The notes under the pieces are model-generated. The model was not told the origin of the DNA. It did no database searches and saw only the letters and a list, made by a program, of their open reading frames with translations. Made by a program: the position numbers and the translations under genes. Shown piece by piece: positions 9,688 to 16,388 of a stretch of 64,000 nt of DNA. Source of the stretch: Streptacidiphilus sp. ASG 303 (lineage in GTDB: Bacteria; Actinomycetota; Actinomycetes; Streptomycetales; Streptomycetaceae); assembly GCF_020991365.1 (NCBI RefSeq), contig NZ_JAJLRA010000002.1, positions 310,001 to 374,000 on the forward strand. Reading direction: 5' to 3'. Position 1 is the stretch's first letter. Every line of letters starts with the position of its first letter.

Positions 9688-10947
9688 ATGTGGAGCGTGA
9701 TGCGCCCCCTGGCCCTGCTGTGCTGCGCGGTCGCCGTGCCCGCCCTGGTGGGGTGGGGGGTGGACCGGCTGCTGAGACGGGCGATGGGCTCCCGGCCCGG
9801 CTCGCGGACCCTGCCGCTGCTGCGCCGCTGCCGGATGCCCCTGCAGGCCCTGGTGGCGGCGGCGTGGCTGTACGCGGCGCTGCCGGCCGCGGGACTGCCG
9901 TCCGAGGTGTACCCGGCGGCGCGGCACACCCTGCTGGTGCTGGTGATGGCCGCCTCGGGGTGGCTGGGGGTGCGGGTGACCGGCGCCCTGGTGACCACGG
10001 CGGTCGGCCGGTACGAGAACGCGGTGGACGACCACTCCCGGGTGCGGCGGATGCGCACGCAGGTCGGGCTGATCCGCCGGGTGGTCCAGGCCGCGATCGT
10101 GCTGGTCGCGATCGCGTCCGCGCTGATGACCTTCCCGGCGGCCCGCGCGGTGGGCACCAGCCTGCTGGCGTCGGCCGGCGTGATCGGCGTGGTCGCGGGC
10201 ATCGCCGCGCAGTCCACCCTGGGCAACCTCTTCGCGGGCCTGCAGATCGCCTTCGGCGACATGGTGCGGATCGGCGACGTCGTGGTGGTGAACGGCCAGC
10301 AGGGCCAGATCGAGGAGATCACCCTCACCTACCTGGTCCTGACCACCTGGGACCAGCGCCGGATCGTCATGCCGGTCTCGTACTTCACCGGGCGGCCGTT
10401 CGAGAACTGGTCGCGCAAGGACCCGCGGATGACCGGCACGGTGATCCTCCACCTGGACCACGCGGCGCCGATCGGCGAGCTGCGGGCCGAGCTGAAGCGC
10501 TACCTGGACGGCAACGCGCTCTGGGACCGGCAGGGCTGGAGCCTGCTGGTCACCGACACCACGCCGTCCACGGTGGTGGTGCGGGCCCTGATGACGGCGC
10601 GGGACGCGGACGACGTGTGGACGCTGCGCTGCGCGGTCCGCGAGCACCTGCTGGAGTACGTGCGGGAGCGCCACCCGCAGGCGCTGCCCCGGGTCGCCAC
10701 GACCGTGGTCGCGGCGGGCGGGCCCGAGGGCCACGGCGCGGAGGACCAGGCCGCGCAGGAGCGCGGCACGGAGGAGCACGGGGTCGGGGCGCCCTGGGCG
10801 GAGGGGCCCTGGACCCGGCCGGAGGGGACCCCCCACGAGAGGGTCCGGGACGCGGAGGGGCCGCGGGCCGCACGGGGTGCCCGGGTGCCGGTGCCGGCGC
10901 AGCGGCGGTCCCCCGGGGGCGTCAGCCTGGCCAAGGAGCCCCGCTGA
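9688..10947 (+). CDS. MscS-family mechanosensitive channel (copy 1)
   Basis: A 419-residue channel of the small-conductance family, expected to release solutes on hypo-osmotic shock. Hydrophobic helices lie at about 6-25, 50-70, 80-105 and 130-155. The pore helix and beta domain follow: TSLLASAGVIGVVAGIAAQSTLGNLFAG, then GDMVRIGDVVVVNGQQGQIEEI and NWSRKDPRMTGTV. A hydrophilic tail from about 350 ends in SPGGVSLAKEPR. The nearby gene at 15048 is a paralogue, with long identical stretches in the pore and beta domain and the same SPxGVSLAK ending. The start is the ATG at 9688, where no strong Shine-Dalgarno is seen. Confidence 0.9.
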   Translation: MWSVMRPLALLCCAVAVPALVGWGVDRLLRRAMGSRPGSRTLPLLRRCRMPLQALVAAAWLYAALPAAGLPSEVYPAARHTLLVLVMAASGWLGVRVTGALVTTAVGRYENAVDDHSRVRRMRTQVGLIRRVVQAAIVLVAIASALMTFPAARAVGTSLLASAGVIGVVAGIAAQSTLGNLFAGLQIAFGDMVRIGDVVVVNGQQGQIEEITLTYLVLTTWDQRRIVMPVSYFTGRPFENWSRKDPRMTGTVILHLDHAAPIGELRAELKRYLDGNALWDRQGWSLLVTDTTPSTVVVRALMTARDADDVWTLRCAVREHLLEYVRERHPQALPRVATTVVAAGGPEGHGAEDQAAQERGTEEHGVGAPWAEGPWTRPEGTPHERVRDAEGPRAARGARVPVPAQRRSPGGVSLAKEPR

Positions 10948-10992: not shown

Positions 10993-11952
10993 TCAGGACA
11001 CCACGTCCTTGCCGCGGAAGCCGCGGAAGGCCAGCGCCAGCAGCACCACCGCGTAGGAGGCGGAGACCACCGTGCCCTTGACCATGCCGCCCCACTCCAG
11101 CTGGGGCTGGAGGGCGTCCGCCCAGGCGTACTGCCAGTGGGCGGGCAGCAGGTCGCGCCAGTCGCCGAGGGCGGTGACGGCGTCCAGCACGCTGCCGACG
11201 ATGGTGAGGAAGACCGCCCCGCCGACGGCGCCGAGCGGCGCGTCGGTGGCGGTGGAGAGCCAGAAGGCGAGCCCGGCGGTGGCCAGCTGCGAGAGCAGGA
11301 CGTACCCGACGGCGATCGCGAGGCGTGGCAGCGCCGACCCGGCCTCCAGGCTGGTGCCGGTGGGCAGCCTCAGGTCGCCCCAGCCGTAGGCGGCGGTGCC
11401 GACGGCGAGGGCCACCGCGGGCAGCAGCACCACCGCCGCCGCGCTGAAGGCGAGGGCGACGGAGAGCTTGGCGGCCAGCAGCCGGGTGCGCGGCACGGGG
11501 GCCGCGAGCAGGTAGCGCAGCGAGGACCAGCCGGCCTCCGCCGCCACCGTGTCGCCGCAGAACAGCGCCACCGGGATGACCAGCAGGAAGCCGGTGGAGA
11601 CGAAGAGGGCGGTGGCGGCGAAGTTCGCACCGGAGGCGGTGGCGGTGTCGATGAGGGTGGTGCGGCCGCGGTTCGGGTCGGGGCCGCCGCCGATGGCGAA
11701 GGCCGCGAGCAGCACCAGCGGCAGGCCGGCCAGGACGGCGGCCATGACGAGGGTGCGGCGGCGGCGCAGCTGGCGCACGGCCTCCACCCGGAAGGACAGG
11801 GTGCGGCGCGGCCGGTAGCCGGGGGCGTGCCCGGCGTCGGGTGGCCCGGGGGCGGCCAGCGGCGGGACGTGCGGGGTCCCGGGCTGCTGCCGGGCCGGCG
11901 ACGGCGGACCGGCCTGCGGCGGCGGGGCCGCGGACGGCTGCGGGGCGCTCAC
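10993..11952 (-). CDS. ABC transporter permease partnered with the hydrolase-ABC fusion
   Basis: A 319-residue membrane protein with GTG at 11952; its first codon overlaps the stop of the fusion gene (GTGA), so the two are translationally coupled. About 60 Pro/Ala-rich residues come first, then FRVEAVRQLRRRRTL and six helices (about 76-98, 122-145, 170-195, 215-235, 245-265, 290-310). GWSSLRYLLAAPVPRTRLLAAKL is the coupling-helix region typical of ABC-2 permeases. Two subunits would form the channel with two copies of the ATPase domain. Substrate and direction are not revealed, although ABC-2 systems usually export. Confidence 0.85.
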   Translation of the reverse strand: MSAPQPSAAPPPQAGPPSPARQQPGTPHVPPLAAPGPPDAGHAPGYRPRRTLSFRVEAVRQLRRRRTLVMAAVLAGLPLVLLAAFAIGGGPDPNRGRTTLIDTATASGANFAATALFVSTGFLLVIPVALFCGDTVAAEAGWSSLRYLLAAPVPRTRLLAAKLSVALAFSAAAVVLLPAVALAVGTAAYGWGDLRLPTGTSLEAGSALPRLAIAVGYVLLSQLATAGLAFWLSTATDAPLGAVGGAVFLTIVGSVLDAVTALGDWRDLLPAHWQYAWADALQPQLEWGGMVKGTVVSASYAVVLLALAFRGFRGKDVVS

Positions 11953-14813
11953 GCGGGTCCTCCGATCAGGGAGAGGAAGGCGTCCTCCAGGCGGCGGTGC
12001 GGTCCGACCCGCTCGACGGGCACGCCGAGCCGGACCAGTTCGGCGACCAGCGCGGGCACGGTCAGGCCGTCGAGGCGCACCAGCAGCCCGGCGTCGACCG
12101 CCTCGGCGGAGGCGACGCCGTCGAGGGCGGCGGCCTTCTCCGCGGCGGCGGTGCGGCCGCCCGCGTCCAGGGCCTCCGGGCCCTGCGCCGGGGTGGCGAC
12201 GAGCAGCAGGTCGCCCGCGCCGACGATGTCCGCGACGGGCCCGGCGGTGACCAGGCGGCCGCGGTCCATGACGACGAGGTGGGTGCAGCTCTGCTCGACC
12301 TCGGAGAGGAGGTGGCTGGAGACGATGACGGTGCGCCCGGTGGCGGCGTACCGCACCATGACCTCGCGCATCTCGCGGATCTGCGGCGGGTCGAGGCCGT
12401 TGGTGGGCTCGTCGAGGATGAGCAGCTCGGGCAGGCCCAGCATGGCCTGGGCGAGGGCGAGGCGCTGCCGCATGCCCTGGGAGTAGGTGCGCACCGCCCG
12501 GTCCAGCGCCTCGCCGAGGCCGGCGATCTCCAGCGCCTCCTCCAGGTGGGAGTCCCCGTCGGGGCGGCCGGTGGCCTGCCAGTACAGGCGCAGGTTGGCG
12601 CGGCCGGTGAGGTGCGGAAGGAAGCCGGCGCCCTCGACGAAGGCGCCGACGCGGGAGAGGACGGGGGCGCCGCTGCGCACGGCGTGGCCGAAGACGCGGA
12701 TCTCGCCGCTGTCGGGGCGGATGAGGCCCATGAGCATGCGCAGGGTGGTGGTCTTGCCCGCGCCGTTGGGGCCCAGGAGTCCGACGACCTGGCCCTGTTC
12801 GACGCGGAAGGAGAGGTCGCGGACGGCGTACCGGTCGGCGGCGCCCGCGTAGCGCTTGGACAGGCCGGTGATCTGCAGCGGGACGGCGGCGAGGTCCGGG
12901 TCCGGCCGCGGGGTGCGGCGCAGCCGCCCGGGGCCGGTGAGCAGCAGCAGGGCGGCGAGGGCGACCGCTCCGGCGGGCATGGCCCACACCCAGGCGGGCA
13001 GCGGGGCGGCGGCGGTGCGCAGGCCCTGGTCGGTGGGGACGGCGAGTCCGGGGCCGGCCGTCGCGACACGGTAGGCGGCGGGTTCGGCGGGCGAGGCGTA
13101 GGCGAGGTCGGTGCTGGCGAACACGACCGCCATGCGGTGCCCGGCGGTGAACTCGTGGTCGATCGCCGGCAGCCTCACCTGCACGGTGCGGCCCTGCGGG
13201 GCGTCGGCGCCGGTGACGCGGAAGGGGGCGACCAGCTGCTGGGGCAGGGTGCGGCCGCCGTCGGGGGCGACGTCGTAGAGCTTGGCGAAGAGCACGGCGT
13301 CGGGCCGGTCGGCGCGGACCCGCACGGAGAGGCGCGGCGCGCCGGTGACCCGGACGGAGGAGGCGAGCGGCGCGGAGCTGAAGACGGCGGACTGGCCCGG
13401 GAGGTCGAGGGAGAGGCCGGGCCCGACGGCGGACAGCCGGGAGAGGGCGGCCAGGCCGGGCACCGTGGAGACGGCGGGCGGCGAGCCGCCCGGGGGGTTG
13501 GCGGCGGTCTGCTCGCCGCCGGCCAGCGGCACGGTGCGGACGGTGGTGCCGTCGAGGCCGGGGTAGCGGTCGGCGGTCGCGCCGCGCAGCACGGACTGGA
13601 CGCCGGTGGAGTCGAGGCCGCCGGTGCGGGTGACGCGGAAGGCGGGGCCGGCGGGGGCGTGGCCGCCCTTGAGGTGGTGGTCGAACCAGGCGGTGACGCG
13701 CCGCTGGACGCGGGCGGTCTCCTGGTCCCCGCCGTCGTGGCCGCCCGCGTACCAGTCGACGGCGACGGGCGCGCCGTTCGCGGCGACGGCGCGGGCGATG
13801 GCGTCGCCCTGGTCGAGGGGGAAGAGCGAGTCGTGCAGGCCCTGGACGACGAGGGTGGGGACGCGGATGCGGCCGGCGACCGAGGAGGGGCTGGAGCGCT
13901 CCAGGAGCCTCACCGCGGCGGCGTCGGGCCGTCCGGCGACCGCGACCCGGCGGTACATGGCGCACAGCTCGGCGGTGAAGCGGCCGCAGCCGGGGTCCGC
14001 GGCGGCCGGGCCGGGCCGGGCGCCGGGGGCGGCGTCGGGCGCGGCGGGACCGGCGGGGCCGCCCCGGCCGACCTGGCCGCCCTGCGCACCCTGGCCGCCC
14101 TGTGCGGACGGCCCGGCGGGGTCGGTGGACCCGGTGGAGAAGAAGATCCCGGTCCAGAGCTTCTTGAGGACGCCGTCGGCCGGACCGCTGCCGGCCGCGT
14201 TCTGCGGGAAGAGCGCGCCGGCCAGGTCCCACCAGGTGATCTGGGGCGCGATCGCGTCGATGCGGCGGTCGTACCCGGCGGCGAGCAGCGCGACCGCGCC
14301 GCCGTAGGAGGCGCCGGTGACGCCGACCCGGGGGTCGCCCGGGGCGTCGAGCCGGACCTCCGGCCGGGTGGCCAGCCAGTCGACGAGGCCGCGGACGTCC
14401 TGCACCTCGGCGTCGGGCGCGTCCAGGCCGATCCGGCCCCCGGAGCGGCCGAAGCCGCGGGCGGACCAGGTCAGCACCGCGTACCCGGCGCGGGCGAGCT
14501 GCTCCGCCTGCGCCCGCACGCCGTCCTTGGAGCCGCCGAAGCCGTGCGCGAGCAGCACCGCGGGGCGGCGCCCCGCGGGGCCCGCGGTGAGGAAGGAGGT
14601 GTCGATGCGGACCTTCCGGGCGCTCCCGGGGGCCTCCGGAAGCTCCAGGAAGCGCTGCTCGACGCGGACCGGCGGCCCGCCGCCGGAGGCGGCGGCGGTC
14701 CACACGCCGACGGTCCCGGCCGCGAGGGCCAGGGCGAGCACGGCGGCCGCGAGCCGCCGGGAGCGGCGCGGCCGCCCCGTCCACCACCGCCGCAGGCGGC
14801 CGCCGAGGTCCAT
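11949..14813 (-). CDS. Fusion protein: CocE/X-Pro-dipeptidyl-peptidase-like hydrolase + ABC ATPase
   Basis: A 954-residue protein with ATG at 14813. Residues 20-42 are a membrane helix that places the next domain outside. Residues about 55-580 form an S15/CocE alpha/beta hydrolase: VLLAHGFGGSKDGV, GVTGASYGG with the nucleophile Ser near 170, VQGLHDSLFPLDQ with the acid, and GGHDGGD with the base, followed by a C-terminal jelly-roll (PRLSVRVRADRPDAVLFAKLYDV). A second helix near 620-640 (LPAWVWAMPAGAVALAALLLL) leads to a full cytosolic ABC domain: GPNGAGKTTTLRML near 680, YSQGMRQR near 777 and LLILDEPTNGLDP near 796. Hydrolase and ATPase therefore sit on opposite sides of the membrane. It forms an operon with the permease gene. 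Confidence 0.9.
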   Translation of the reverse strand: MDLGGRLRRWWTGRPRRSRRLAAAVLALALAAGTVGVWTAAASGGGPPVRVEQRFLELPEAPGSARKVRIDTSFLTAGPAGRRPAVLLAHGFGGSKDGVRAQAEQLARAGYAVLTWSARGFGRSGGRIGLDAPDAEVQDVRGLVDWLATRPEVRLDAPGDPRVGVTGASYGGAVALLAAGYDRRIDAIAPQITWWDLAGALFPQNAAGSGPADGVLKKLWTGIFFSTGSTDPAGPSAQGGQGAQGGQVGRGGPAGPAAPDAAPGARPGPAAADPGCGRFTAELCAMYRRVAVAGRPDAAAVRLLERSSPSSVAGRIRVPTLVVQGLHDSLFPLDQGDAIARAVAANGAPVAVDWYAGGHDGGDQETARVQRRVTAWFDHHLKGGHAPAGPAFRVTRTGGLDSTGVQSVLRGATADRYPGLDGTTVRTVPLAGGEQTAANPPGGSPPAVSTVPGLAALSRLSAVGPGLSLDLPGQSAVFSSAPLASSVRVTGAPRLSVRVRADRPDAVLFAKLYDVAPDGGRTLPQQLVAPFRVTGADAPQGRTVQVRLPAIDHEFTAGHRMAVVFASTDLAYASPAEPAAYRVATAGPGLAVPTDQGLRTAAAPLPAWVWAMPAGAVALAALLLLTGPGRLRRTPRPDPDLAAVPLQITGLSKRYAGAADRYAVRDLSFRVEQGQVVGLLGPNGAGKTTTLRMLMGLIRPDSGEIRVFGHAVRSGAPVLSRVGAFVEGAGFLPHLTGRANLRLYWQATGRPDGDSHLEEALEIAGLGEALDRAVRTYSQGMRQRLALAQAMLGLPELLILDEPTNGLDPPQIREMREVMVRYAATGRTVIVSSHLLSEVEQSCTHLVVMDRGRLVTAGPVADIVGAGDLLLVATPAQGPEALDAGGRTAAAEKAAALDGVASAEAVDAGLLVRLDGLTVPALVAELVRLGVPVERVGPHRRLEDAFLSLIGGPA

Positions 14814-15047: not shown

Positions 15048-16388
15048 GTGGATCCGTGGAGCGTGCTGAGGCCGGGACTGGTGCTGGTGGGCACGGTGCT
15101 GGTGACGCTGGCGCTGGGGAAGGCCGCCGAGCTGCTGGTGGGGAGGATGGCGGCAGGCCGCCCGGACAACCCGCTCTGGGCGCTGCTGCGGCGGTGCCGG
15201 GCGCCGTTCCTGCTCACCGTCGGCTCGATGGTGCTGCTCGCCGGCGAACGGGCCGCGGAGCTCCCGGACGGGGTGCGCGGGCCGCTGCGGCACCTGCTGG
15301 CGCTGTTCCTGATCGGGGTGGCGGCGTGGCTGGTCTCCCGGGTCGCGGCGCTGCTGATCAACACCTCCTTCAACCGCTACGCGGCCGTCCGGCGGGACCC
15401 GGCGCGGGTGCGGCGGGTGCGCACCCAGGCGGGCATGCTCCGCCGGGTCACCACGGTCATGGTGGTGCTGATCGCCCTGGCCTGCATGCTGATGACCTTC
15501 CCGGGCGTGCGGGCGGTGGGCACGAGCCTGCTGGCCTCGGCGGGCCTGATCGGCGTGGTCGCCGGCGTCGCGGCGCAGTCCACGCTGGCGAACCTCTTCG
15601 CCGGGCTCCAGGTGGCCTTCGGCGACATGGTGCGGATCGGCGACGTCGTGGTGGTCGAGGGCGAGTGGGGGACGGTGGAGGAGATCACCCTCACCTACCT
15701 GGTCCTGGCCACCTGGGACCAGCGGCGGATCGTCATGCCGGTGTCGTACTTCGCGGGGAGGCCGTTCGAGAACTGGTCGCGCAACGACCCCCGGATGACC
15801 GGCACGGTGATCCTCCACCTGGACCACGCCACACCGGTGGCGGAGCTGCGCGAGGAGTTCGACCGGCTGATGAAGGAGTCGCCGCTCTGGGACGGCGTGG
15901 GCTCGGCGCTCCAGGTGACCGACACCACGCCGAGCGGCATCGTGGTGCGGGCGCTGATGACCGCGCGGGACGCCGACGACGCCTTCACGCTCCGCTGCGA
16001 GGTGCGGGAGCGGCTGGTCGACTGGCTGCGCCGCACCCACCCGGAGGCGCTGCCGAGGATCGCCACCTCCCCCGCCCCGGGCCCGGTCGGCCTGCCCCGG
16101 CAGCGGCCCGGCGGCCCGGCCGGGGACGGGCACGCCTGGCCCCGGGACGGGGAGCGGCCCGGGGACGGCGGCCGGGAGCCGGAGTACCGGCGGCGGGAGC
16201 CGGAGTACCGGCGGCGGGAGCCGGAGTACCGGCGGCGGGAGCGGGTGCTCGCCGAGGCCGGCCACGACGGGGAGCCGCCCCGCCACACCGGCTCGCCGGC
16301 CGGCTCCCCCGACGGCGTCTCCCTGGCGAAGGGCGGCGACGGGGGGACCGGGGACGCCGGGGGCGGGGGCGGCGACCCGCGCGGCTGA
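15048..16388 (+). CDS. MscS-family mechanosensitive channel (copy 2)
   Basis: GTG at 15048 with GGAGAGG nearby (446 residues). It is a paralogue of the 9688 gene: MTFPGVRAVGTSLLASAGLIG, VVAGVAAQSTLANLFAG, FGDMVRIGDVVVVEGEW and RPFENWSRNDPRMTGTV match copy 1 almost residue for residue, while the N-terminal helices differ. Helices lie at about 8-28, 48-65, 80-105 and 128-150, followed by the pore helix. The tail beyond residue 345 is low-complexity, with three copies of REPEYRR from a 21-bp repeat, and carries SPDGVSLAKGG near its end. A perfect hairpin follows the stop. Confidence 0.9.
   Translation: MDPWSVLRPGLVLVGTVLVTLALGKAAELLVGRMAAGRPDNPLWALLRRCRAPFLLTVGSMVLLAGERAAELPDGVRGPLRHLLALFLIGVAAWLVSRVAALLINTSFNRYAAVRRDPARVRRVRTQAGMLRRVTTVMVVLIALACMLMTFPGVRAVGTSLLASAGLIGVVAGVAAQSTLANLFAGLQVAFGDMVRIGDVVVVEGEWGTVEEITLTYLVLATWDQRRIVMPVSYFAGRPFENWSRNDPRMTGTVILHLDHATPVAELREEFDRLMKESPLWDGVGSALQVTDTTPSGIVVRALMTARDADDAFTLRCEVRERLVDWLRRTHPEALPRIATSPAPGPVGLPRQRPGGPAGDGHAWPRDGERPGDGGREPEYRRREPEYRRREPEYRRRERVLAEAGHDGEPPRHTGSPAGSPDGVSLAKGGDGGTGDAGGGGGDPRG
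16173..16241 (+). repeat. 21-bp in-frame tandem repeat in MscS copy 2
   Basis: Three exact copies of a 21-bp unit start at 16173, 16194 and 16215, and a partial fourth runs to 16241. Each encodes REPEYRR in the cytosolic tail, so copy-number change would alter tail length without shifting the frame. Confidence 0.85.

Follow-up and report, generated by a model that had tools for sequence, protein, structure and literature searches.

We found that one gene in the window, the 64,000-nucleotide stretch of Streptacidiphilus sp. ASG 303 DNA that we analysed, encodes a protein in which an S15/CocE-type serine hydrolase, predicted to lie outside the membrane, is joined in a single chain to an ABC ATPase predicted to lie inside, and that an ABC-2 permease gene adjoins it. 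We are confident of this anatomy and topology. It is possible, though we hold it somewhat doubtful, that the pair is an ancient single-chain ABC machine of the Actinomycetota that couples ATP use to the cleavage of membrane esters or acyl compounds, the principle of YbbAP-TesA having been reinvented from unrelated parts.

A hydrolase and an ABC ATPase in one frame

The fusion gene (11949-14813, minus strand) begins with an ATG at 14813, ends with a TGA at 11951-11949 and encodes 954 residues. There are no in-frame stops, and third-position GC is 0.95-1.00 in every 100-codon block, which together indicate that the frame is real over its full length. From the N to the C terminus the protein consists of a signal-anchor helix, an S15/CocE-type alpha/beta hydrolase with a jelly roll, a second membrane helix and a DrrA/BcrA-like ABC ATPase. 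Pfam matches to Peptidase_S15 (residues 82-204), PepX_C (468-576) and ABC_tran (665-805) were all well over their curated cut-offs, and the scores for PF02129 (63.5 bits against a cut-off of 23) and PF08530 (54.2 bits against 22.5) place the hydrolase in the Peptidase_S15/CocE fold family. The Ser-Asp-His triad of that family is present as a nucleophile, Ser169 in GASYGG (14307-14309), an acid, Asp328 (13830-13832), and a base, His359 (13737-13739). Similarly, the ATPase carries the motifs that define the ABC superfamily, with Walker A at about residues 681-688, the signature YSQGMRQ at 777-783, Walker B LILDEP at 798-803 and the H-loop histidine at His834; Glu727 occupies the Q-loop position. 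Thus the open reading frame, the Pfam matches and the motifs confirm the original prediction of one frame uniting a CocE/S15-type hydrolase, complete with GASYGG, Asp and His, and a full ABC domain.

A structure model of the fusion, built from 40 sequences with a mean pLDDT of 73, agrees with this order of domains. The first helix spans residues 17-41 (14691-14765) and has an Arg-rich inside flank. The alpha/beta hydrolase and jelly-roll (PepX_C) module, supported by Pfam, the model and fold comparison, covers residues 49-601 (13011-14669), and the second helix, recognized in the model and by hydropathy and charge, covers 607-625 (12939-12995). The ATPase domain, delimited by Pfam, fold and alignment, begins at about residue 646 and extends to 864 (12222-12878), followed by a C-terminal extension of residues 865-954 (11952-12221) placed by the open reading frame and the model. 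Confidence in the model is low for residues 725-735 and for the link from the second helix to the ABC domain. The hydrolase cap also contains a Gly/Gln-rich low-complexity insert (14057-14102, residues ~238-252) that varies between species and is disordered in the model.

The permease gene (10993-11952, minus strand) encodes 319 residues, and its start overlaps the fusion stop by 4 nt (GTGA). Its matches to PF12730 and PF12679 were over their cut-offs and the model has six TM helices, which identify it as an ABC-2 transporter. The best alignments of the permease model were to NosY and to a mycobacterial efflux pump (8k1n), at a Z of ~11, a score that is moderate for a helical protein. Within the outer loops of the permease, we found no motif that clearly sets the fusion partners apart from the permeases of hydrolase-free paralogues.

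Topology and the nature of the hydrolase

We examined the charges flanking each helix in 66 homologues, being those in which a simple hydropathy scan detected both helices. The mean charge was +4.9 before and -0.8 after the first helix, and -0.2 before and +1.6 after the second. By the positive-inside rule, the first helix was oriented with its N terminus in and its C terminus out in 98% of these homologues and the second helix in reverse in 73%. The N-termini of stand-alone relatives of the hydrolase resemble signal peptides that end in AxA. In addition, a likely disulfide loop, Cys276 to Cys284 (CGRFxxxxC, 13962-13988), is shared by every fused protein examined and by 12 of 14 stand-alone exported relatives. 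Taken together, the flank charges, the export signals of the relatives and the cysteine pair indicate that the hydrolase is almost certainly on the outer side of the membrane with the ATPase inside, consistent with the earlier suggestion that the first helix exports the hydrolase. At least four stand-alone relatives (L137, L140, L162 and L164) also carry C-terminal wall-anchor tails, sortase-type or similar, of the LPATGG/ATTGS/LPNTGG type, an alternative means of attaching a related enzyme to the surface.

ABC ATPases are ordinarily soluble subunits. The one described here would itself cross the membrane and bear an enzyme on the far side.

Fold comparison bears on what this enzyme may cleave. 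The nearest solved fold is PaL lipase (8yzo; Z 31.5, rmsd 3.2, 449 residues), followed by the cocaine esterase CocE (Z ~27 over ~450 residues), while CocE/NonD hydrolases, alpha-amino-acid ester hydrolase and X-Pro peptidases score at a Z of ~25. Because the lipase and the cocaine esterase outscore the X-Pro peptidases, an esterase is somewhat favoured over a peptidase by these model comparisons, although this is not proof. The earlier proposal of peptide or ester cleavage is therefore weakly sharpened toward an ester, with the X-Pro peptidases sharing the fold.

Distribution, history and genomic context

The same domain order was sought across actinobacteria, with sampling confined to the Actinomycetota. 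From a scan of reference genomes with the hydrolase part, we kept the best 80 loci, all of which belong to Streptomycetaceae bar one record labelled Streptosporangium. In these loci and in three genomes of the window's genus (83/83), hydrolase and ATPase share one open frame and a homologous permease gene follows it directly, and most Streptomycetaceae loci with a callable permease start show the 4-nt stop/start overlap. Outside this best-match set, phylum and class samples yielded 18 fused-clade loci from other families and classes, and all 18 are fused with the permease adjoining. The total is 101 of 101 loci examined in detail, plus one annotated protein on a Tsukamurella plasmid record, where the pair is named "alpha/beta fold hydrolase" and "ABC transporter permease" and again overlaps by 4 nt. 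The translation of that hydrolase contains a full ABC domain, so the one annotated copy examined is named by its hydrolase half only. With the fusion conserved at 101 loci and in Tsukamurella, we rejected a sequencing or assembly error or chance read-through as its origin. Neither a stop nor a frameshift separates the domains; far from being always separate genes, the two parts are always one gene within this clade, and the predicted link to a permease gene holds at every fused-clade locus examined.

Conservation extends to the active sites. Ser169, Asp328, His359, the HG of the presumed oxyanion region and the cysteine pair are invariant in all 101 fused proteins, as are the Walker A lysine, the signature serine and glycine, the Walker B aspartate and glutamate and the H-loop histidine, suggesting that both halves are under selection as enzymes. 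At the Q-loop position, 100 of the 101 have Glu.

Within Streptomycetaceae, 65 of 81 sampled genomes (about 80%) have a match at E <= 1e-60; presence counts of this kind are lower bounds, as only the best candidates per genome were scored. The 18 loci include two single-contig genomes of ~1.34 Mb (L157 and L158) that keep both fusion and permease, which there neighbour a DUF305-like gene and genes for other small exported proteins. Conservation over much of this antibiotic-producing phylum and retention in two 1.3-Mb genomes suggest that the pair probably serves something basic at the cell envelope.

We built a tree of the hydrolase from 33 fused and 15 stand-alone sequences, leaving out L140, a mis-cut fragment, and six stand-alone rows that failed a simple motif search. 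A single branch (SH-aLRT 88) splits fused from stand-alone hydrolases, so that one fusion or one fission would suffice; the tree is suggestive, but not decisive, of one such change. Among the 33 fused loci, the pairwise distances of hydrolase, ABC domain and permease correlate with r of 0.84-0.91, as expected if the three were inherited together. In the fused clade we found no case of hydrolase and ABC domain encoded by separate genes. A mere tether should allow such a split, and its absence counts against the possibility that the fusion just sets the stoichiometry and location of a surface esterase whose hydrolysis is independent of transport. The stand-alone exported relatives, some of them wall-anchored, presumably do act without an ABC partner, and yet we regard this as the least probable of the explanations weighed here.

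Across genomes only the fusion-permease pair is constant, and no conserved neighbour that would name a pathway was found among the compared fused loci. We rejected operon context as a pathway clue, as the MscS, GNAT, RluD and LspA genes beside the pair recur in close relatives only. In the window, the operon lies between two paralogous genes for MscS-type channels (9688-10947 and 15048-16388, both plus strand), an arrangement that only a few close relatives share. The second encodes a C-terminal tail of EYRRREP repeats from a 21-bp tandem repeat (3.6 copies, 16166-16242).

The varied contexts bear on an alternative in which an ABC-2 pump exports a cytoplasmic lipid, peptide or secondary metabolite, which is trimmed or deacylated on emergence by the outer hydrolase. 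The ABC-2 fold and a DrrA/LanF-like ATPase are typical of exporters. Moreover, the closest other ATPase-permease pairs in the window's genus are ordinary two-gene transporters with ~46% (ATPase) and ~33% (permease) identity; the nearest paralogue, in 3/3 genomes of the genus (L004, L005 and L006), is such a pair with no hydrolase. However, biosynthetic genes do not travel with the fusion, and its occurrence in ~80% of the Streptomycetaceae sampled, together with its retention in the 1.3-Mb genomes, points to a general substrate. We consider export with maturation unlikely, though it deserves attention.

A BcrAB/LanFEG-like immunity transporter, expelling a membrane-active peptide or ester antibiotic that the hydrolase destroys, would also draw on this ATPase family. 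The ATPase scored with the DrrA subfamily model (drrA, TIGR01188; 177 bits against an NCBIfam cut-off of 312) and the LanF/gallidermin immunity model (galliderm_ABC, TIGR03740; 170 bits against 310), under the cut-off in both cases, and immunity ABC-2 pumps often pair with a further membrane-associated component (PMC4239024). Against such a role, no antibiotic cluster recurs beside the fusion, there are only three plasmid-record matches, of which two lie in replicons as large as 2.8 and 11.9 Mb, and the small genomes retain the pair. The Glu at the Q-loop position, which we considered as an immunity marker, was rejected as it is common to ordinary paralogues. We judge a defence pump quite improbable. 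Phage defence was likewise rejected, PADLOC giving only generic ATPase matches.

A proposed mechanism and its relation to known systems

Our leading reading, still a tentative one, is that fusion and permease, at the expense of ATP, draw a hydrophobic ester or acyl compound out of the membrane and hand it to the tethered hydrolase. The two proteins would assemble as one ABC-2-type machine, [fusion]2[permease]2; one ATPase gene and one permease gene, in the usual ABC architecture, imply two of each and thus two tethered hydrolases at the outer mouth. The N-terminal signal anchor would export the hydrolase, and a short C-terminal tether would keep it next to the permease at the outer surface of the membrane. 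In the model the last strand of the hydrolase ends only ~5 residues before helix 2, so the hydrolase must sit close to the membrane. The chain would then re-enter through helix 2 to the cytoplasmic ATPase, whose cycling would drive the permease to lift the membrane-borne compound outward, where the hydrolase would cleave it. We infer the stoichiometry, the direction of extraction, the ester substrate and the functional coupling; a link between ATP use and catalysis is plausible. Transporters of the ABC-2 family are usually exporters, which counts against extraction. If the coupling is true, the pair offers a one-operon model for ATP inside driving chemistry outside.

The short tether would also suit a mechanism in which ATP cycling gates the hydrolase from the cytoplasmic side, much as FtsEX-EnvC controls cell-wall amidases, and the permease carries no substrate. 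Close structural relatives of the ATPase and permease include NosFY, which has an extracytoplasmic partner, NosD. However, a single helix is a weak lever, and we know of no S15 enzyme that requires gating. Such mechanotransmission seems to us a shade less probable than defence.

The S15/CocE family and PaL lipase share the alpha/beta hydrolase, jelly roll and Ser-Asp-His triad with the fusion, but they are free enzymes with no ABC domain. The add-ons to S15 named in a survey of alpha/beta hydrolases are PepX_C and PepX_N only (PMC11878206). BcrAB, LanFEG and DrrAB have the same family of ATPase and an ABC-2 permease, BcrAB and DrrAB with one gene for each, whereas their ATPases are without a hydrolase domain or extra helices. 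The ATPase is nearest in structure to ABCA transporters, NosF and TM_1403/TM0544. NosF and NosY of NosDFY, the ABC-2-type system of N2O reductase maturation, are among the closest solved structures to the fusion ATPase and the permease, and NosDFY likewise works an extracytoplasmic partner from the membrane; the sequence similarity is at superfamily level only. NosD, unlike the fused hydrolase, is a polypeptide of its own and is not known to be a serine hydrolase.

The original prediction knew of no described system. For the protein architecture this stands within the open literature, where our search found no description of a hydrolase-ABC fusion. It does not stand for the principle, which has one described relative. 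By analogy, the described system functionally most like the fusion and permease is YbbAP-TesA of E. coli, a type VII ABC transporter with a periplasmic GDSL esterase, which is proposed to extract hydrophobic compounds for the attached esterase (PMC12646458). Both place an ABC motor inside and a serine esterase outside, and the pair described here may work in the same mode, combining an ABC-2 transporter with an S15-type hydrolase that is fused to the ATPase. The parts are unrelated: the permease belongs to ABC-2 rather than type VII families, and the hydrolase is of the alpha/beta S15 type rather than GDSL. With its 10 TM helices and its large periplasmic domains, YbbP contrasts with the six-helix ABC-2-type permease that partners the fusion. 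TesA, whose fold is unrelated, is a protein in its own right, whereas the hydrolase of the fusion is covalently joined to its ATPase.
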